Assembly (NCBI RefSeq): GCF_002177135.1
Contig: NZ_MWPH01000002.1
Coordinates: 744,001-808,000 of the forward strand
Direction of reading: 5' to 3'
DNA from: Natronolimnobius baerhuensis
GTDB lineage: Archaea; Halobacteriota; Halobacteria; Halobacteriales; Natrialbaceae
Length of the DNA stretch: 64,000 bases
Under the pieces are notes generated by a model. The model made no database searches. It saw only the letters and a list, made by a program, of their open reading frames with translations, and was not told the DNA's origin. A program made the translations under genes and the position numbers. Position 1 is the first letter of the stretch, and each line of letters opens with the position of its first letter. Of this stretch, positions 25,850 through 36,493 are shown in pieces.

Positions 25850-28800
25850 TCAGTCCTCCTCCAACGCTCGTGACTCGAGGCCGGAGACATCGCCGTACTC
25901 GTCGGGTGCACAGCCGAGCGAGCGATGCGGGCAGTGCTGGCAGTGTGGGCCAGGATTTGTCTCGAGGCTCGGATCGTCGACGGCGGTGAGCGTCTCGCGG
26001 ACGGTCGTCCACGTGGGCAGTTCGTCGGGGTCGAACAGCACCACGCGCGGCCCGTCCGTCTCGCCGACGTAGACGTAGCCAACTGCGGCAACCGGCTCGT
26101 CGAAGCGCTGCTCGCAGGCTCGAGCGTACAGCGAGAGCTGGACCGCGTCTGCGGGGTCGATTCGGTCGGCCGTCGCCTTGTAATCGAGCACGGCGAGCCC
26201 GCCCGCCCACTGCGTGGCCTGCTCGCCAGTCGCGCCCGCCTCGGATGGCAGCCGGCGAATTGAGTCGATGTAGCCGATGACGTCGCCGTCGACGCCGTCG
26301 ACCGCCGACAGCGAGAACGGCACCTCCGCCGCGAGGTGGTCCCAGTCCGCGACCGGCTGTTCGAAGCCGGGTGCGTCCGCCTCGAAGTAGCGCTCGATAC
26401 ACGCGTGGACGGCCTCGCGATGCTCGAGCAGGTCCCGTGCGGTGAGGTGGCGAGTTGCGGCGTCGGTCCACGCCGACTGCGTGTGATAGTCGCGATAGAA
26501 CGCCTCCTCGGCGACATCGTGGAAGACGGTGCCAACGAGTCTGGAGTCGCCGCTCGAGTGGGTCACTGAGTCCTGGACACTGGACAGCGAACGCGCCTGC
26601 GGGTCGTCGAGCGCCCGCACGACGTGGTCGAGATAGTGCTTTCGCGGGCAGCTCTCGTAGGTGTCCATCGCGCTGTAGCTGTGGCGCATCGCGACGGGGA
26701 GTTCGGTCGCACTCGAGAGCGCCTCGACCGGGAATCGGACGGTGTCAGGCGACAACGCGCCGGCTCGGCGGCCATAGGGCAGCGCATTCTCGAGAGCGGG
26801 TTCGTCGCCGTAGCTGGCCGCATCGGCCGCCGGGAGTAGGGTTCCAGAGCGCAGGAGTCGCCCGAGTTCGTGGACGGTATTGATTGCGTCACGGGTCTCA
26901 AGCGGCTCGACTGTTCGGTCGTCGTAGTCGGCGTAGTAGGTGATCGAACCCGGCGTCACGTCGGCGGCGTGTGCGAGGTCGTCCGTCCGGTCGACGACGG
27001 TCTCGGGATAGGTCGCTCGAACTCGCTCGAAGCTCTCGCACAGCGACGCCCACAGGTCCATGCGTTGGCCGGCGGTCGACCACTCGATGTCGTCCGCGAG
27101 ACAGGCGTCCGCCCTCGAGACGCCCAGTTCCGTCTCGTCGCCGTCGTACTCGTAGTCCGAGCCGAAGACGAACAGGTGATTCTCCGCCCGCGTCAGCGCG
27201 ACGTGGAGCACGCGCCACTCCTCCGCGACCGTCTCGCTCGCGAGGTCGGCACACAGCGGCGACTCGATGTCGTCCGCGAGCGTCGCGGCGAGCAGCCGTT
27301 CTCGAGCCCGTCTGGCGTAGTCGCCGTCGACACACCACTCCTCGTCCGAGAGATAGGGAACGAGCACGGTATCGAACTCGAGGCCCTTCGCCTGGTGGAC
27401 GGTCATCACGTCCACCGAGTCGGTCGAGTGGGTGCCGCGGGTCCGCTCGCTGCCGCCGCCACGGAGCGCTCCCTCGAGGGCGTCGACGAACGCCGCCGTG
27501 AGCGTACTGACGACGGATTCGGGGTCGTAGGCCTCGACGAATCGGTCGAGCCGGTCGAGTTGGGCGCGCTCGTCACTCGTGAGGAACCACTCGAGGCGAG
27601 TCAGTTCGCGGAATCGGCGGATGAACCCCGACAGCGGGTAGACGTTGCGCAGACGCTCGAGGGATGCGAGGTGTTCGCGCGCCTGCTCGAGTTGGGCTGG
27701 GTTCTCGAGGGTCTCCGGGTCGACATCGAAGACCGCATCGTAGAGCGATCCGTCCCGGCGCTGGAGCGTCTGGAGGTCGGTCTCGCCCAGTCGGTAGCGA
27801 TAGAGCAACACCCGTCGAAGGTGGGCGTCGGCGTCGCGGTCGACGAGCACGCGCAAATACGACAGCAGCGTCTGGATCCCGGGCGAAATCTCACCGCGGG
27901 GCGACCCCGAAATTTCGTAGGGGATCTGGCGCTCGCGCAACTCCTCGGCGATGGCCTGTGCGTGGCGATTCGTGCGGACGATCACCGCGAGATCCTCGAG
28001 GCTGCGCTGTGGGACGTTCTCGGCAGCGCCGTTGAGCAGCCTCGAGACGGTCGTCCCGACCTGGCTGGCCGTCGATTCCGGAATCTCGTCGCTCTCGATT
28101 TTGACGACGCGGTCGGAGAGCGTCTCGTCGGCTGCGTACTCGCCAGTCTCGCGCCCGACCTCGCGCAGCGTCTTCGAGGATTGGGGACCGTACTCGCAGT
28201 GATTCGTCAAGTCGAGAATCTCTTGGCGCGACCGGAAGTTGAGTTCGAGTGCAATCGCCTCGTGATCGTCGTACTGCGTCTCGAGGCGGTCCAGTCCCTC
28301 GCGGTCGGTACCGCGCCAGCCGTAGATCGCCTGATCTTTGTCACCGATGGCGAGCAGGTTCGGCCGGTCCGGGCCGCTCGTCAGTTCGGTGATCAACGAG
28401 AACTGCGTCTCGTCGGTGTCCTGAAACTCGTCGCAGTAGACCTGCGTCCACTGGCCGGTGATCTCGTCGGCAATCGCCTCGTCCTCGAGGAGGGTCGTCG
28501 CCGTCCGGACCAGTTCGTCGAAATCGAGCGCCCGCTGTTCCTCGAGGGCGTCGTGGTAATCCGCATACACCGCCGCGTAATGGCGAGCGAGCCGAAGGAA
28601 CTCGACGTAGTGTTTCAGCCGCCCGAACGGGCTCTGCTCGAGGCGATTCGTCTGCTGTCGCCAGATTTCGTTGCCAAACAGCGCCCGCGGGAGCTGTTTC
28701 GTGGTGGGGTCCTCGAGCGAGAGCGCCTCGATGGTGTTCGTCACACACTGCTGGAGCACCCGCAGATACTGGGCGACGTCGTCAACGACCGCGTCCTCGC

Positions 28801-29560
28801 GGAACGCTTCGGGCGACTCCGCGACCTTCTCGCGGCAGTACTCGAGGAGTTTGCCGTAGCCGACGAGTGCCTCCTGGGCCGACTCGAGGTGACTCTCTTG
28901 TGAGAAGAATCGGAGCGCTTCGTTGTCGAAGGAGAGGTCGCCGGCCCGCTGCTCGAGCCAGAGGACGAACTCGGTACAGAGTTCGATTGTTCGAACGTCG
29001 GGCAGGCCCGCCTCGAGATGGGCCGGCGTCACGTCCTCCTGGCTCATCCGCCGGATGAAGTCGTCGACGGCGCTCGTGAGATCCGTCCTCGAGCCGTCGT
29101 GGGCCGTTGCGGCCGCGAAGTCGTAGTCGTTCGTCGCGAGGAGTCGGCCGACGATTCGGCGGCGTTTGCGCTCGGTGACGACGTCGAACTCCGGCGAGTA
29201 GCCGAGGTAGTAGGCGTACTCACGAACGAGGCGATGGCAGAACGAGTGGTAGGTGTAGACATCGATAGCCGCCGCGGTCTCGGGGTCGAGTCGCTCGGCG
29301 ACGGCGTCGCGGATGCTCCCTGCGGCCTCGTTCGCGAACGTCAACACGAGGATGTCATCCGGGTCGACCGCGCCGGACTCGATGGCGTGCTCGATGCGCA
29401 ACAGCATCGTCGTCGTTTTGCCGGTCCCTGCCCCTGCGTCGACCGAGATACAGGCCGCGTTGCTCTCGATGACCGCCGGCTGGTTTCCTTTCGGCTCGAG
29501 GTCGTCGCGGATCTTGGCGTCCTCGAGACGCCCACCTCCGGTTTCATCCGGTTCACCCAT
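25850..29560 (-). CDS. UvrD/AddA-type DNA helicase with C-terminal Fe-S RecB-family nuclease domain
   Basis: 1236 aa from the ATG at 29560. SF1A helicase motifs are complete: Walker A GAGTGKT at about 43-49, CDEFQDTDETQF (II), GDKDQAIYGWRG (III), LELNFRSRQEI (IV), TVHQAKGLEFD (V) and LHVALTRAENHL (VI). The last 220 residues form a PD-(D/E)XK nuclease: CPRKHYLDHV (first cluster Cys), GTVFHDVAEEA (catalytic His), GYIDSI (Asp), AVLDYKAT (Asp-Tyr-Lys), QLSLYARAC, and finally HCQHCPHRSLGC, giving four Cys for a 4Fe-4S cluster as in AddB and Cas4. It overlaps the upstream nuclease-fold gene by 8 bases. The architecture equals AddA plus an Fe-S nuclease; double-strand break end processing is the likely role. 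An open stretch of 23 codons before MGEPDE was not used. Confidence 0.92.
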   Translation of the reverse strand: MGEPDETGGGRLEDAKIRDDLEPKGNQPAVIESNAACISVDAGAGTGKTTTMLLRIEHAIESGAVDPDDILVLTFANEAAGSIRDAVAERLDPETAAAIDVYTYHSFCHRLVREYAYYLGYSPEFDVVTERKRRRIVGRLLATNDYDFAAATAHDGSRTDLTSAVDDFIRRMSQEDVTPAHLEAGLPDVRTIELCTEFVLWLEQRAGDLSFDNEALRFFSQESHLESAQEALVGYGKLLEYCREKVAESPEAFREDAVVDDVAQYLRVLQQCVTNTIEALSLEDPTTKQLPRALFGNEIWRQQTNRLEQSPFGRLKHYVEFLRLARHYAAVYADYHDALEEQRALDFDELVRTATTLLEDEAIADEITGQWTQVYCDEFQDTDETQFSLITELTSGPDRPNLLAIGDKDQAIYGWRGTDREGLDRLETQYDDHEAIALELNFRSRQEILDLTNHCEYGPQSSKTLREVGRETGEYAADETLSDRVVKIESDEIPESTASQVGTTVSRLLNGAAENVPQRSLEDLAVIVRTNRHAQAIAEELRERQIPYEISGSPRGEISPGIQTLLSYLRVLVDRDADAHLRRVLLYRYRLGETDLQTLQRRDGSLYDAVFDVDPETLENPAQLEQAREHLASLERLRNVYPLSGFIRRFRELTRLEWFLTSDERAQLDRLDRFVEAYDPESVVSTLTAAFVDALEGALRGGGSERTRGTHSTDSVDVMTVHQAKGLEFDTVLVPYLSDEEWCVDGDYARRARERLLAATLADDIESPLCADLASETVAEEWRVLHVALTRAENHLFVFGSDYEYDGDETELGVSRADACLADDIEWSTAGQRMDLWASLCESFERVRATYPETVVDRTDDLAHAADVTPGSITYYADYDDRTVEPLETRDAINTVHELGRLLRSGTLLPAADAASYGDEPALENALPYGRRAGALSPDTVRFPVEALSSATELPVAMRHSYSAMDTYESCPRKHYLDHVVRALDDPQARSLSSVQDSVTHSSGDSRLVGTVFHDVAEEAFYRDYHTQSAWTDAATRHLTARDLLEHREAVHACIERYFEADAPGFEQPVADWDHLAAEVPFSLSAVDGVDGDVIGYIDSIRRLPSEAGATGEQATQWAGGLAVLDYKATADRIDPADAVQLSLYARACEQRFDEPVAAVGYVYVGETDGPRVVLFDPDELPTWTTVRETLTAVDDPSLETNPGPHCQHCPHRSLGCAPDEYGDVSGLESRALEED

Positions 29561-30626
29561 CGAATCGTACCTCCTCGGCGATGTACTCCTGACAGCAGGC
29601 GGTGTAGGCACAGTCCGGACAGGACTCACTCGCGATGCGATCCCAGCGGTCGGACGGGTCGAACGCGCCCGAGACGAGCCGGGACGCGAGCGATTCGAGG
29701 CGGCTATCGACGGTTGTGTTTCGGTGTTCGAGTGTCATGCCGAAGGTGTGATGATCGACGTAGGCGTCGGTGAGGTCGACCGGCTCGAGGCTCGTCTCGA
29801 CCGTTTCTCGCACCCAGTTGACCGACGTGTGTTCGCGGTCGGCGAGTGGAATCTGGACGTAGCGACAGGTTCGATCCTCGAGGCCGAGTCGGTCACACAG
29901 CGAGCGGAGGCCGGCGAGGACGACGCTGGTTTCGAACAGCGCGCCGATTGGATCGGGGTCGAACGTCTCCATCTCGGGATCGAAGTGATCGACGAACGAT
30001 TCGGCGACGCGCTCCCAGTCGTCGCGATACCGCAGGAAGCCAAGCGGCCGAACCGAGGGCACGAACCGGACGCCGACGACCGACGAGCCGTCGCCGTAAA
30101 CGTAATCGACAGTCGCCTCGAGCGTGGCCGTCTCCTGTAATTGCTCGCCGAAAGAGACCGAACTCGAGAGCGTGAGATCCGGGCCGACGAGATCCGCGAG
30201 CGGGTCGGCCTCCTTGTCAGTCGCGGCGAGCAGCTGACGCAGGCCGGCGGCGTGGGTGGGGCCGACCGCCTCGACGTAGGCCTCGACCGTGGCCTCGAGC
30301 ACCTGCCGTTCGTGGCGACGCTGTGCGCGCGAGTGAAATCGCTCGTCGTGGCGCTCCCAGCGCGTGGCGAGTGCCTCGAGCGCGCGGTCGGCGAGCGTCT
30401 CCCGGTCGATCTCGCCCGTTTGTTGGGCAGTCTGCTCGAGCGTCGTACAGAGTGCGCGCCGGAGGAGGGCGACGCGCTCGTCGGGGCCGTCGTCGTCGCT
30501 GTCGTCGAAGCCGTGGACGTGGGCGAACTCGTACCGGCGGGGACAGTGGAGATACGTGCGAAGGCCGTCGGCCGACAGCGTTGCCGGCGTGGTTCCGTCT
30601 TCGTCCGAATCTGCGTTCTCAGTCAT
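29553..30626 (-). CDS. RecB/Cas4-like Fe-S nuclease-fold protein, catalytic motif apparently degenerate
   Basis: 357 aa. The cluster ligands of Fe-S RecB-family nucleases are visible: Cys in TYLHCPRRYEF near residue 30 and CPDCAYTACCQEY near the C terminus. The nuclease core is less clear: ATVDYVYGDGS keeps the Asp of the GxxD strand, but the strand that should carry (D/E)-x-K reads VVGVRFVPSVRP, with no acidic-x-Lys. It may therefore be a structural Fe-S subunit rather than an active nuclease. Its start overlaps the end of the upstream helicase-like gene by 8 bases (30619-30626) and its end overlaps the downstream helicase start by 8 bases, so the three proteins are probably translated together and form one complex. 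The longer open frame upstream lies inside the preceding gene and was rejected. Confidence 0.8.
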   Translation of the reverse strand: MTENADSDEDGTTPATLSADGLRTYLHCPRRYEFAHVHGFDDSDDDGPDERVALLRRALCTTLEQTAQQTGEIDRETLADRALEALATRWERHDERFHSRAQRRHERQVLEATVEAYVEAVGPTHAAGLRQLLAATDKEADPLADLVGPDLTLSSSVSFGEQLQETATLEATVDYVYGDGSSVVGVRFVPSVRPLGFLRYRDDWERVAESFVDHFDPEMETFDPDPIGALFETSVVLAGLRSLCDRLGLEDRTCRYVQIPLADREHTSVNWVRETVETSLEPVDLTDAYVDHHTFGMTLEHRNTTVDSRLESLASRLVSGAFDPSDRWDRIASESCPDCAYTACCQEYIAEEVRFDG

Positions 30627-32910
30627 TCCGAACCACCTCCCCGGCCGCGAACTCGAACTGCGAGCGGACGGCATCCGCGAGGTCGTCGTCGATATCGCCC
30701 GTCTCGAGGACGACGGCGATCTCCTCGAACAGTTCTTCCGTTTCGGCCAGATCGGCGTTTCCACCCGTACTCGCCTCCCGAAGGACGCGCTCGAGTTCGG
30801 CACGGGGCTGGTCGAGCAGCGTCTCGAGGGCGTTCGTCTTCCCGTGAATCGCCGCGCCCGTGTGTGCGTCGACGGCCTCGAGAACGAGGCTCGGAACCGA
30901 CTCGAGCAGTTTGAGATAGCGCGAGTCGTCGTAGGTTCGACGCAGGCCGCCGGCCCCGCGTTCGTACGAACAGCAGTACAGGTGGCTCGTCGCCGCGCGG
31001 GTTCCGAGCGCGAGTCGTCGCCGCGCTCGCTGGGCGTGATACGTCTCGAAGGGGTCGCCAGCGATTCGGTCCGCGACCGGCGTCGGCTGGCCGTCCTCGA
31101 GCGGGCCGAACGTGGACTCGATGGTCGCCGAATCGGGTGCGGTGACCGCCGGGTACGCCTCCAGTTCGCGGAGCCACGCGCTCGGAAACAGCTGTGTGAG
31201 GAACTGCTCGCCTGGATACGTGTTGTCGATCAGATCCAGCAGGAAGACCGTCTCGTAGGTGTCGTATTTGAGGTCGTCGACTGGACAGACCGTCACTCCG
31301 CCGGTCGGCGGCTGTGTCTCGACAGCGTGGACGTAGGGCGCGTCGTACTGGATCGTCCGGCGCAGCATCCGATTCAACCCATCCCAGTCCGGGCCGACGA
31401 GGTCGGTCTCCTCGACGAACGCCGCAATCTCGAGGACGCGACGCACACTGGCGTACTGCTCGCGGGCGTCGACCCAGTCCTCGTCTGCGGCGATACGCCC
31501 TTTCAGATCGGTGCGGACGATCCACTCGGCCAGCGACTGGGAGACGCTCGCGTCGGTACAGTCCTCGAGCAGCGTCGGTGAAAACTCGGGCACGCGAGCG
31601 CGAAGGCGCTCGAGCGAGGTGGTGTAGCGCTGACTCGAGTGGTCGTGTCGCTGCTCGCTCTCTGCGGGTTCGGGACCGCCACGAGCGCGCTCGCGCTGGA
31701 CGGTGACGAACGCGTAAAGTTCGTTCACTGCCGGATCCTCCGCGAGCGAGGGCGTCCCAATCGTCGCCGTCGGCACGCCAGCGTCGCGAAGCCGGCGTCG
31801 CGTCTCGGGCACGCGCTCGATTCCGGGGACTGCAACCGCGAACGCGTCGAACCCCCAGTCGTGGCGACCCGCGAGCGACTGGATCTCCGTTGCGACCGCC
31901 CGAACCTGTTCGCGGGACGTGCCCGCTCGAATGCGACGCGCTCGAGCGACCGGCTCGGAGTCCGGTGAGTCGTCCACCGAATCGGCCGGTGGCGTCTCCC
32001 CCGTCGCAAGAACCCGCGTAATCGCGCGATGGGGTGGCTCGGCACTCATCTCGGCGTCCTCGAGTGCGGCCGGCTCGAGCGCCTCGACCTCGAGTCCGGG
32101 ACCGACGTGGTCGTCGATCCGCCCCGGCTCGACGCGCGTTCGCTCGACGCTCGCGTGGTGCTCGCCGAAACAGACGAGTTCTGCGTCACCGGAAATCGCC
32201 GCGAGATACCAGCGGTCGAGCTGTCGGTACTCCTCGAACTCGACTGCAAGCACCGCATCGTAGGACGACGTAACTCGATCCCGGAGTCCGTCGGCGTTGT
32301 CCTCGAGTAACTCGACTGCCCGGGGAATCACGTCGGCCCGCTCGACGTAGCCGCGGTCTTCGAGTTCCGCGTGAAACCGGTCGTTCATCGCGTACAGAAA
32401 CTCGAGACACTCGCGTGGCTCACTGGGAGTCTGCGGGGCCGTCTCCGCACCGTCCTCGAACCCGGCGAGTCGACGCCGCTGGCGCGTCGCCTCGAGCAGC
32501 AGTTGCCCCACGTCGCGGGCGAAACTCTCGTGGGCCGACGCCCGCTCGAGATAGGCGGGCACGTCACGGCTCGCGCCGTCGATCACCAGCGAAATCAGTT
32601 CGATTCGCTCTTCGTACTCGAGGCGGTCGAGCGTCGGGTCGTACGCCTCGAGCGTCTTCGAGGCGTGTTCGGGCAGCGACTCGAGACGTGGCGACTGGGG
32701 CGTGCCGTCGGTCAGTTCGACGGCTGCAAGCGCCTCTCGAAGGGACTCGAGACCCGACGGATGGCGCTTGAGCACCAGGACATTTCGCGGGCCGTACTCA
32801 CCGGCCAGTCGCGCGTATCGGCGAGCGACTGCCGCGAGGAGCGTTGGTCCCGGAACGGGTTCAGTGAGGAGGGTACAGGTCCCATCGAGACCGCCAGTCG
32901 GAGGCGACAT
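30619..32910 (-). CDS. AddB-like inactivated helicase subunit
   Basis: 763 aa, first gene of the three-gene operon. The N terminus has a strand-loop-helix where a P-loop would be (TEPVPGPTLLAAVARRYARL), but without the G-K-[T/S] of Walker A. Later segments resemble a UvrD-like scaffold: RADVIPRAVELLEDN, AVLAVEFEEYRQLDRWYLAAI (degenerate motif II), VRAVATEIQSL with AVAVPGIERVPETRRRLRDAGVP, and CPVDDLKYDTYETVFLLDLIDNTYPG matching the motif V region of AddB/RecC-like proteins, then RARRRLALGTRAATSHLYCC for motif VI. No nuclease motifs are seen. The architecture matches an AddB or RecC-type non-ATPase subunit. The family name is inferred from layout and operon context. Confidence 0.72.
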   Translation of the reverse strand: MSPPTGGLDGTCTLLTEPVPGPTLLAAVARRYARLAGEYGPRNVLVLKRHPSGLESLREALAAVELTDGTPQSPRLESLPEHASKTLEAYDPTLDRLEYEERIELISLVIDGASRDVPAYLERASAHESFARDVGQLLLEATRQRRRLAGFEDGAETAPQTPSEPRECLEFLYAMNDRFHAELEDRGYVERADVIPRAVELLEDNADGLRDRVTSSYDAVLAVEFEEYRQLDRWYLAAISGDAELVCFGEHHASVERTRVEPGRIDDHVGPGLEVEALEPAALEDAEMSAEPPHRAITRVLATGETPPADSVDDSPDSEPVARARRIRAGTSREQVRAVATEIQSLAGRHDWGFDAFAVAVPGIERVPETRRRLRDAGVPTATIGTPSLAEDPAVNELYAFVTVQRERARGGPEPAESEQRHDHSSQRYTTSLERLRARVPEFSPTLLEDCTDASVSQSLAEWIVRTDLKGRIAADEDWVDAREQYASVRRVLEIAAFVEETDLVGPDWDGLNRMLRRTIQYDAPYVHAVETQPPTGGVTVCPVDDLKYDTYETVFLLDLIDNTYPGEQFLTQLFPSAWLRELEAYPAVTAPDSATIESTFGPLEDGQPTPVADRIAGDPFETYHAQRARRRLALGTRAATSHLYCCSYERGAGGLRRTYDDSRYLKLLESVPSLVLEAVDAHTGAAIHGKTNALETLLDQPRAELERVLREASTGGNADLAETEELFEEIAVVLETGDIDDDLADAVRSQFEFAAGEVVRND

Positions 32911-33022: not shown

Positions 33023-33427
33023 ATGGAAGACATCTTCGTTGCACGAGTTATGTCCGCCTCGCTCGAGACCGTCACGTCCGACACCCTCGTCGAGGATGCC
33101 GGCCAGGTAATGCTCGAGAAAGACATCGGCTCCGTCGTCGTCATCGCCGAAGACAACGAACTCGAGGGAATCCTGACGACGACGGACTTCGTCGATATCG
33201 TCGCACAGAGTCATCCGAAAGCCGAGACGACAGTCGAACGCTACATGACCGAAGACGTTGTCACGGTTTCGGCACAGGATAGCATCCGTGATGCGGCCGA
33301 TCTGATGGTCGAACACGGCTTCAAGCACCTGCCGGTCGTCGACGAGGACGAGGGAGTCATCGGCATGATTACGACGACCGATCTGGCGTCGTACGTCTCG
33401 CGCATTCAGTCGCCAAGCCCCGAGTAA
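33023..33427 (+). CDS. Tandem CBS-domain protein
   Basis: 134 aa consisting of two CBS domains, residues about 1-60 and 70-130. The first has ARVMSASLETVTSDTLVEDAG and VVVIAEDNELEGILTTTDF; the second has YMTEDVVTVSAQDSIRDAADLM and HLPVVDEDEGVIGMITTTDL. Such stand-alone pairs bind adenine nucleotides or related ligands and often act as energy sensors, but the partner is not evident from the neighbours. It starts 112 bases from the divergent AddB-like gene. Confidence 0.9.
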   Translation: MEDIFVARVMSASLETVTSDTLVEDAGQVMLEKDIGSVVVIAEDNELEGILTTTDFVDIVAQSHPKAETTVERYMTEDVVTVSAQDSIRDAADLMVEHGFKHLPVVDEDEGVIGMITTTDLASYVSRIQSPSPE

Positions 33428-34393: not shown

Positions 34394-35056
34394 CTACACG
34401 AACTCGAGATCGGCGATGTATTCGACGACGTCCAGGGCGATCACGCCGGGTCGGAGTCCGGCGCTGATTCGTGCCAGGAGGATGTCGATGAGTTCGTCGT
34501 GCGTGTACTTCAACAAGCGAAGCGTCTCCGCACTCGAGAAGCGAGATTTCACGCGGCCGTTTAGCTGGTGATTCGCGAAAAAGTCGTCTTCGTCAATCGT
34601 AATCGCAATGATCGTCACGTTCGGCAGGTCACCCAGCCCGAGCAGCAGGGTTTCGTCCTCGAGGACGTCGACCTCGTCGAGAATCGCGACGATGTGGTCG
34701 TCGGTATTCCGAAACTCGTCGATAAACCGCCCTGCGCCGGTGCCGTCTCTCGAGAGGTGGTTCCCGATCCCCGAGTCTTGGGCGAGGCCGTGCAAGACGT
34801 CAGTCTTCGCCGAGCCCGACATGCAGTTCCAGTACGCACGCCGCACACCGAACGATTCCTGTCGTAGCTTCCGCACGACGTACTTCGCGAGCGTGGTCTT
34901 TCCTGAGCCCGAGGGTCCGAAAATCAGCGTGTGGTCGCTGCTATGTCCGTTCGTAATCGGGTCCAACACTGCAGCGATTTGGCTGATTTGCCCGTCTCGG
35001 TGCTCGAGATCCTGGGGTAAATAGGTCGTCTCGAGGGCTCGAGCGTCCGTGATCAT
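34394..35056 (-). pseudogene. Truncated Orc1/Cdc6-type AAA+ ATPase
   Basis: 220 aa, against about 400 for a full haloarchaeal Orc1/Cdc6 initiator. It has the initiator-type start RALETTYLPQDLEHRDGQI, Walker A GPSGSGKTT, Walker B VAILDEVDVL, sensor 1 with TIIAITIDED and the start of the lid (DELIDILLARISAG, VVEYIADL), then stops. The C-terminal lid helices and the winged helix that binds origin DNA are missing, and none of the three frames beyond the stop restores them. It is either a decayed copy or a short ATPase-only paralogue. ATG at 35056 is chosen because the upstream 24 codons are not family-like. Its position at the edge of a small-gene island supports an element remnant. Confidence 0.7.
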
Positions 35057-35228
35057 ACATAGCCTGCAGTAACACTCAGGTAATAAAACTAGATGGTCAA
35101 GAAAGGTTCTGTGGGCTGGTATGCACAAATCTATCTGTATAATCAGAAGGAAGAGAGCATGAGACGTTTTCTATGACACGCTCAAATTTGGGAAATAATA
35201 GAATTATTTGGCAGAGAGGTTGAGAGAG

Positions 35229-35762
35229 TTAGGGCGCCATCTCGACAAAGTCGTCGTAGAAGTCGAAGTCCTCAGAAGTCACCGTAGTTTCAGTATCATC
35301 ATCATCAATGATGGCAACAGCAGTTACTGTTCCATTGAAGACAGCATCACTGTCAACAAATTCACTGTCATCAGGATCGTCGGTTCCAGCGACGAAATCG
35401 TTATCACTGTTACTGACACCATCCTGTTCTGAATAGTCGAATTCAATTAAGCTCCCGACTTCATCAATTTCATGAACATCTCCCTGCTCATCGCCGGGGA
35501 CATCACTCCTGATCTCAATCCTATCGGCGTTGCCCATAGAAGTAACTGACGCCACTACATTATGCTCAGTCTCGTCAACTTCAAGCGAGACACCCGCTTG
35601 TGCTTCTTCACCTACGGAACCACCAAGATCTAACACGAACGCCGCGATCACGGCCGCGAGAATGACTGTTATCGCGACCATGAGGATTACCCCAATCACC
35701 GGTGAAACAGCACGCTCCTCCTCACTACCTACCAAGATGTTCTTATATTTTCCAATGTTCAT
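35229..35762 (-). CDS. Archaeal type IV pilin (DUF1628 class), second of a tandem pair
   Basis: 177 aa. The class III prepilin start [20 protein letters not shown] is followed by the hydrophobic domain [18 protein letters not shown], almost identical to the H-domain of haloarchaeal adhesion pilins. Cleavage by the archaeal prepilin peptidase would fall before the Ala-Val-Ser-Pro stretch or just upstream. The rest is an exposed acidic beta-rich domain ending in [15 protein letters not shown]. Its start codon overlaps the stop of the upstream paralogue by 4 bases. Assembly in the membrane needs PilB/PilC, which are not in this window. Base composition is clearly more AT-rich than in the core genes nearby. 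Confidence 0.88.
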
Positions 35763-36205
35763 GGCGAATAGCCTTCAAAATCGAAGTCGGCACTTCCAAC
35801 CTGCGTTTCAGTACCGTCATCTGTGATAATGGCAACAGCAGTTACAGTACCAGAAACATCGGCTTCATTCTCAAGACCATCATCAGGTTCTAATGTGAGA
35901 GTTTCACCCGCTTCTATTAGATGGTCGCCACTATAATCGACGTTTTCTCCTCGTACGTCGATTTCATCGGAGTTTCCCATTGAAGTGACCTGGATTTGAA
36001 TCTTATGATCAGACTCATCTACCTCAATCGATACACCAGCCTGTGCTTCTTCACCTATAGATCCACCAAGATCCAGCACGAACGCCGCAATCACAGCCGC
36101 GAGAATGACGGTTATCGCGACCATCAAGATCACGCCGATAACTGGCGATACTGCCCGTTCCTCATCGTTGCCGATGAGTTTCTTACCGTATTTTTCGATA
36201 TCCAT
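35759..36205 (-). CDS. Archaeal type IV pilin (DUF1628 class), first of a tandem pair
   Basis: 148 aa from the ATG at 36205 (a GTG three codons upstream is possible). N terminus [20 protein letters not shown] and the H-domain are nearly the same as in the downstream paralogue; similarity continues through [19 protein letters not shown] and then fades, so the two arose by tandem duplication with divergence of the exposed domain. The pair overlaps as ATGA and is probably one operon. Adhesion or surface-pilus subunit is the expected role, by comparison with haloarchaeal PilA-type pilins. Confidence 0.88.
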
Positions 36206-36493
36206 TGTATGCACGCACCCCTGAACGGTCGGAAGAGTTATTTCTCGAGGTCTGAAACCCGAGAGTGACGCCAGTGGGGGATTGAAACCGCAGCCCCTGT
36301 GCGTCCTCTTCCTTTCCGTTTCCTTTGGTGCTGATACGTACCAGACAACCGGGAATACTTATAGATAAGGGATCGTGTCTGTCTGGATATCTGAAAACGC
36401 TTTCACCAATGATAATCAGGCGTGGGTAGAACACCTACAGCACCCGCTTGAAGCAGCGCAGTCTTGCGATTTCATAGTTTGGCGTCTCTGGAG

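Follow-up and report, generated by a model that had tools for sequence, protein, structure and literature searches.

Organization of the locus

The DNA analysed here, a window of 64,000 nucleotides from a haloarchaeal genome of 3.9 Mb (G000) whose relatives are Natrialbaceae, carries three minus-strand genes that, as judged from its open reading frames, are transcribed in the order B, N, A. Gene B (30619..32910) codes for an AddB/RecC-like inactivated SF1 helicase of 763 residues, gene N (29553..30626) for a stand-alone Fe-S PD-(D/E)XK domain of 357 residues, and gene A (25850..29560) for a helicase of the UvrD/AddA/RecB type, 1236 residues long, with a Fe-S PD-(D/E)XK nuclease of its own. The stop of B overlaps the start of N by 8 bases (ATGACTGA, 30619..30626, minus strand), and so does the stop of N with the start of A (ATGGGTGA, 29553..29560, minus strand), as an earlier note on this DNA had described. 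At both junctions GGAGGT lies a few bases upstream of the start of the following gene. A frame or annotation artefact was rejected in view of the overlaps, the ribosome-binding sites and the conservation of the genes.

Upstream of B, and divergent from it, is a CBS-domain gene (33023..33427, plus strand; PF00571, E=1e-28), which lies outside the machine and serves as a landmark of the chromosomal site at which the Natrialbaceae form is fixed; the downstream neighbour of the operon is the gene for prolyl-tRNA synthetase (proS). With proS and the CBS gene as neighbours, no third helicase or RecD homolog was found in the operon, and the genome has one copy of B-N-A. Elsewhere in the window, a short ORF for an Orc1/Cdc6-like ATPase (34394-35128, 244 residues), apparently truncated at its C-terminus, is adjoined by two overlapping type IV pilin-like ORFs (35229-35762 and 35759-36214).

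Protein A has an intact motor and an intact nuclease motif

The description of A as a complete UvrD/AddA-type helicase with its own Fe-S nuclease was borne out, with matches of the helicase core to PF00580 (E=3e-53) and of the C-terminal region to PDDEXK_1 (E=3e-18). The Walker A motif AGTGKT (residues 44-49; 29414..29431), including K48, and the Walker B or motif II sequence DEFQD (28418..28432) are followed by the first putative Fe-S ligand, Cys971 (26648..26650), the nuclease motif D1126-Y-K1128 (26177..26185) and the C-terminal three ligands, Cys1207, Cys1210 and Cys1217 (25910..25942), all on the minus strand. K48, DEFQD, these four cysteines, H1014, D1099, D1126 and K1128 are invariant across 39 relatives, the nuclease motif being found in 39/39. 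The helicase core is nearer to PcrA/UvrD than to AddA, and A scores 135 bits against the TIGR02785 cut-off of 708, far below all of the curated AddA/RecB cut-offs; methanogen AddA proteins, at 321 to 342 bits, likewise fall under the TIGR02785 cut-off. Matches of A to GajB in PADLOC were discounted, as they reflect the shared UvrD core only. The best sequence match of the nuclease domain in the PDB is mycobacterial AdnA, with which it has at least a C-x2-C in common. The earlier note had taken it as a departure from AddAB that the helicase itself bears a Fe-S nuclease; that domain is present in A, but the arrangement is not unprecedented, as both the AdnA match and the known UvrD-Cas4 fusions (PMC5704561) indicate. 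Among methanogen-type genomes, four loci (L072-L075) encode a UvrD helicase of about 1020 residues that stands alone and bears a Fe-S nuclease at its C-terminus, and in one of them (L074) a 1101-residue SNF2-like helicase follows.

Protein B resembles the helicase half of AddB

Protein B gave no meaningful match in Pfam or NCBIfam, and searches of the PDB with single sequences of B and N returned nothing useful; it was profiles and structures that succeeded. No Walker A motif is present at the N-terminus of B: the strand-loop-helix at the expected position (TLLTEPVPGPTLLAAV; 32821..32868, minus strand) has no GxGKT, and a P-loop was found in none of 41 aligned relatives. The sole GxxxxGKT-like match in the protein, at residue 685, was judged to be due to chance, and motif II reads VEFEE, as against DEFQD.

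A 41-member profile of B found AddB (3u44_B) as its best match in the PDB (E=3.6e-9). Compared by hhalign with unsplit methanogen AddB, B aligned over 503 columns, at residues 20-607 (prob 98.4%, E=5e-15), whereas the match to AddA from the same methanogen operons was weaker (E=2e-7). The AlphaFold model (pLDDT 81.6) matches UvrD helicases (family E=5e-22) and AddB; among the matches listed for the model, the query TM-score is highest for AddB (0.60). The profile and the model together indicate that B is an inactivated AddB-type helicase, matching the helicase half of AddB. The earlier note was right to call this protein AddB-like and to find no Walker A in it; of the relatives that it had proposed to compare by profile, AddB was matched by B and RecC was not (hhalign prob 1.5%, no significant match to E. 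coli RecC, entered as a single sequence).

Protein N keeps the Fe-S ligands and has no D/E-x-K

Protein N matches PDDEXK_1 (PF12705, E=4e-8), a domain also matched in 39/40 of its relatives. The solved structure that best matches its AlphaFold model (pLDDT 85.9) is AddB (4cej_B, prob 1.00, E=1.9e-4). In the profile comparison with AddB, which the earlier note had suggested, N aligned with residues 738-792, the start of the nuclease domain (prob 45%, E=2e-4), and the split therefore falls at the boundary between the helicase and nuclease parts of AddB. N is, however, no closer to AddB than to the nuclease of A itself (E=6e-7), and it could for this reason derive from another Cas4-like gene. By these comparisons, N is the weakest link in the reading of B and N as a split AddB.

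The four cysteines expected to bind a cluster, Cys28 (30543..30545) and the C-terminal Cys336, Cys339 and Cys345 (29592..29621; both on the minus strand), are invariant in 40/40 relatives, as are H125, D174 and P324. At the active site D174 is kept, but D-Y-K has become R-F-V (DYVYGDGSSVVGVRFV; 30060..30107, minus strand), in alignment with ADNVIRTDDGLHVFDYK of the sister clade described below. No D/E-x-K triplet occurs anywhere in the 357 residues of N, which speaks against an alignment error that merely masks the active site. The claim that this protein has Fe-S cysteines and a lost E/D-x-K was confirmed, and the loss is lineage-wide.

Decay of N into a pseudogene was also rejected. When the window is compared with its nearest relative, N has a dN/dS of 0.12, A one of 0.11 and B one of 0.21; within the clade with the altered motif the values for N rise to 0.46 in distant pairs, still below 1. 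The predicted dead N is, by these ratios, under purifying selection.

Two clades that differ in the state of N

Protein B is present in 54 of 145 haloarchaeal genomes and in 32/36 of those from the Natrialbaceae. In the phylum, of which 393 genomes were covered, no full B was found outside haloarchaea; methanogens had either an ordinary AddAB, with AddB unsplit, or single proteins of the UvrD-Cas4 type. In a scan of 84,980 species genomes the best 80 loci were all haloarchaeal. B, N and A stand in this order on one strand, with B and N as separate genes, in all 61 haloarchaeal loci compared, so the arrangement is not due to chance.

In the same 61 loci, the D-x-K of N is lost in 30/30 members of one clade, which takes in the window and nearly all Natrialbaceae, and is intact in 31/31 members of its sister clade; we refer to these as the dead and active clades. 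The catalytic strand reads ADNVIRTDDGLHVFDYK in the active clade and VDYVYGDGSSVVGVRFVP, or equivalents without D-x-K, in that of the window. A second count, of named loci, comprised 48 dead and 31 active loci and partly overlaps the first set. In a tree built from the concatenated A and B of 59 loci, a single change of catalytic state is seen. A tree of B rooted on AddB also has one change, with weak support for a root placed between the two clades. Since D-Y-K is retained both in unsplit methanogen AddB and in the nuclease of A itself, an active ancestor is most likely; the likely direction, from active to dead, follows from parsimony on these sequences. The earlier note would have given up its view had the catalytic site of the 357-residue protein proved intact. 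An intact form does exist, in the sister clade, and the window's N is still without D/E-x-K; the loss is thus an event that can be dated on the tree rather than an error of alignment.

The divergent CBS gene adjoins the dead form in 40/46 Natrialbaceae loci and the active form in 0/31. The dead form occupies a fixed chromosomal site; the distribution of the active form among haloarchaeal families is patchy. In Natribaculum breve the two forms occur together on a single chromosome (L147, L179), and one copy of B-N-A lies on a plasmid (L175). In one active-clade copy (L045, 5508-7160) gene A is truncated or broken in frame, and B and N stay open. In five methanogen genomes (G147, G174, G338, G286 and G396; L076-L080) genes for AddB and AddA are adjacent, in the classical archaeal AddAB arrangement; the unsplit AddB has the four Fe-S cysteines, and AddA is without them.

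The active form and Argonaute

Haloarchaeal Argonaute-AgaP (APAP), a long-A Argonaute with the PLD protein AgaP, is known as a defence system (PMC11442185). In the portion of that report available to us, a helicase gene is mentioned near some Argonaute-AgaP copies and is not described as a three-gene unit of the AddAB type. A full-length Argonaute and an AgaP-like PLD gene stand directly before B-N-A, on the same strand, in 8/31 named active loci and in 0/48 dead loci (Fisher p=3e-4, uncorrected for kinship). An AgaP-like gene or remnant lies nearby in 13/31 active loci and in 0/48 dead loci. In one locus with Argonaute and AgaP before the operon, the PLD gene stops about 5 bases ahead of the start codon of B. 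On the tree, Argonaute switches between present and absent seven times.

A one-strand unit of five genes, Argonaute, AgaP (PLD), B, N and A, was read in Natribaculum breve (L048; G136:C1), and the same was observed in L039, L047, L051, L089, L090, L091, L160, L161, L163, L166, L171, L172, L174 and L179. Where five-gene loci were read far enough upstream, a divergent ATPase of the AAA_14/DUF4143 type lies beyond Argonaute. A subset of active loci (L042, L044, L049, L158, L167 and L175) is without Argonaute. Beyond A they have a protein with an Argonaute-like, OB-like N-terminal stretch and a part that reads like a DEDD-type exonuclease, which in L042 lies about 6470-7597 bases after the start of B, on the opposite strand; an AgaP-like PLD gene comes next in most.

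It is possible that Argonaute, AgaP, B, N and A form a partner machine for Argonaute. Another proposal, that B-N-A is primarily a defence against mobile elements and that any role in repair is secondary, would fit the patchy occurrence of the active clade, the eight loci behind Argonaute-AgaP and the plasmid-borne copy; yet we regard it as somewhat unlikely, since the clade of the window is fixed in the chromosome next to the CBS gene, is near-universal in the Natrialbaceae and has no Argonaute neighbour in any of 48 loci. For the window's own copy a defence-island setting was rejected, because no Argonaute was found anywhere in its genome and the site beside the CBS gene is fixed.

A probable split AddB in a proposed three-subunit helicase-nuclease

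The earlier note had proposed a three-gene AddAB-like complex. The homology on which this depended was borne out by the hhalign and structure matches and can now be sharpened: on the simplest reading of the sequences and models, B and N together are a split AddB. We consider it likely that B-N-A is a three-subunit helicase-nuclease of the AddAB/RecBCD type, in which A provides the motor and an active nuclease, B an inactivated scaffold and N the split-off nuclease of AddB. AddAB has one motor and two nucleases, of which that of AddA cuts the 3' strand and that of AddB the 5' strand; the inactivated helicase of AddB scans for Chi (PMC4824097). By analogy, A would be the single motor, presumably of 3'-5' polarity, with an active nuclease as in RecB or AddA; B would be the inactivated helicase scaffold, the part which, in AddB and RecC, serves to thread and scan the 3' strand; and N would be the AddB nuclease domain turned into a separate gene. 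In the active clade N would cut one strand and A the other, as in AddAB. In the window's clade, N lost D-x-K once and, with the Fe-S ligands kept, would act as an iron-staple or DNA-end-binding part that guides a strand, leaving A as the only cutter, as in RecBCD with its dead RecC nuclease domain. The Fe-S cluster of AddB is required to bind broken ends (Yeeles 2009, as cited in PMC4176176), and the inactivated nuclease domain of RecC forms a hoop for single-stranded DNA (PMC1185551).

We consider it unlikely that the three genes were assembled by convergence, a UvrD-Cas4 fusion (A) having been joined by a dead helicase paralogue (B) and a protein of the Cas4 type (N), without any particular line of descent from AddAB. 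The nearness of A's core to PcrA/UvrD and of N to A's nuclease would suit such an origin, and UvrD-Cas4 fusions have a wide distribution among bacteria and mesophilic archaea (PMC5704561), with methanogen examples in L072-L075. However, B is clearly nearer to AddB than to AddA, with AddB as its top PDB profile match, and B and N jointly reproduce both halves of AddB in order. That the window's N still cuts by means of migrated or alternative catalytic residues is highly improbable: migrated lysine and acidic residues are known in PD-(D/E)XK enzymes, and the invariant H125 and D174 and the purifying selection on N would be in keeping with such a site, but N has no D/E-x-K at all, and in almost all of the Natrialbaceae clade its motif strand has given way to G-V-R-F-V-P, a conserved hydrophobic/basic sequence.

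Comparison with known systems

The predicted three-subunit machine shares with AddAB one active SF1A motor with a C-terminal nuclease and an AddB-type inactivated helicase, Walker A and B in one subunit only (intact in A; no Walker A in any relative of B), and a Fe-S PD-(D/E)XK domain with one N-terminal and three C-terminal cysteines. The inactivated SF1 helicase and the Fe-S nuclease follow each other in the same order, on two polypeptides here; AddB is one polypeptide, whereas B and N are separate genes in every locus compared. A's nuclease has its own Fe-S site, unlike methanogen AddA. AddAB has two active nuclease sites, and the motifs predict the same for the active clade and a dead N for that of the window. 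Because the window's clade has neither a single-chain AddB nor two active sites, we class its B-N-A as of the AddAB/RecBCD kind and not as AddAB.

With RecBCD it shares one active RecB-like nuclease and a RecC/AddB-like part whose one nuclease domain is dead and whose helicase domains are inactivated too. RecBCD differs in having RecD, of which the B-N-A operon has no homolog; in B-N-A the Fe-S ligands are kept, the dead domain is a separate protein, and B is not detectably similar to RecC by profile. The RecC-type state of B and N, with dead helicase and dead nuclease, most likely arose by convergence. RecBCD has been proposed by Rigden to have passed through an AddAB-like stage before the RecC nuclease was inactivated (PMC1185551), and this step seems to have been repeated independently within one archaeal class. 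As close relatives survive in both states, sometimes in one genome as in Natribaculum breve, the consequence of losing an AddB-type nuclease is directly testable.

A link between AddAB/RecBCD and Argonaute has been suspected in bacteria (PMC10269773), and the active form beside Argonaute would be a natural setting for it. APAP itself is related to B-N-A by position, directly upstream of the active-clade operon in several genomes and absent from that of the window. Tentatively, and with the balance somewhat against it, we propose that the active form of the haloarchaeal split AddAB is a dedicated partner of a DNA-guided Argonaute, in an Ago-AgaP-B-N-A operon, which would make or supply guide DNA and unwind targets, and that in one lineage the machine, without Argonaute, became fixed at one place in the chromosome and lost one of its nucleases, in a repeat of the proposed transition from AddAB to RecBCD. 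In the literature searched, largely outside subscription journals and preprints, we found no AddAB or AddB tied to haloarchaea in this sense. As far as these searches show, what is new is an AddB in two pieces, the occurrence together of active and dead states in which the cluster ligands are kept, and the position of the active form behind Argonaute-AgaP.

In mycobacterial AdnAB, which supplies the PDB sequence that best matches the nuclease domain of A (C-x2-C at least in common), AdnA and AdnB each have a helicase and a nuclease, whereas B lacks both a Walker A and a nuclease, and N is a protein of its own. UvrD-Cas4 fusions of the pfam12705 branch have the architecture of A, a UvrD helicase fused to a Fe-S Cas4-like nuclease, but stand alone or in restriction-modification loci (PMC5704561), with no AddB-like partner or separate N.

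HerA-NurA is likewise an archaeal helicase-nuclease for end resection, with motor and nuclease families unrelated to those of B-N-A. The likely job of B-N-A would be to process double-strand ends for recombination and to degrade foreign linear DNA, alongside HerA-NurA. The earlier interpretation, partly supported overall, had placed it next to or instead of that system. With NurA taken as a proxy for the pair, its presence in 140/141 haloarchaea and in the window's genome argues against replacement and indicates that B-N-A works in addition to HerA-NurA.
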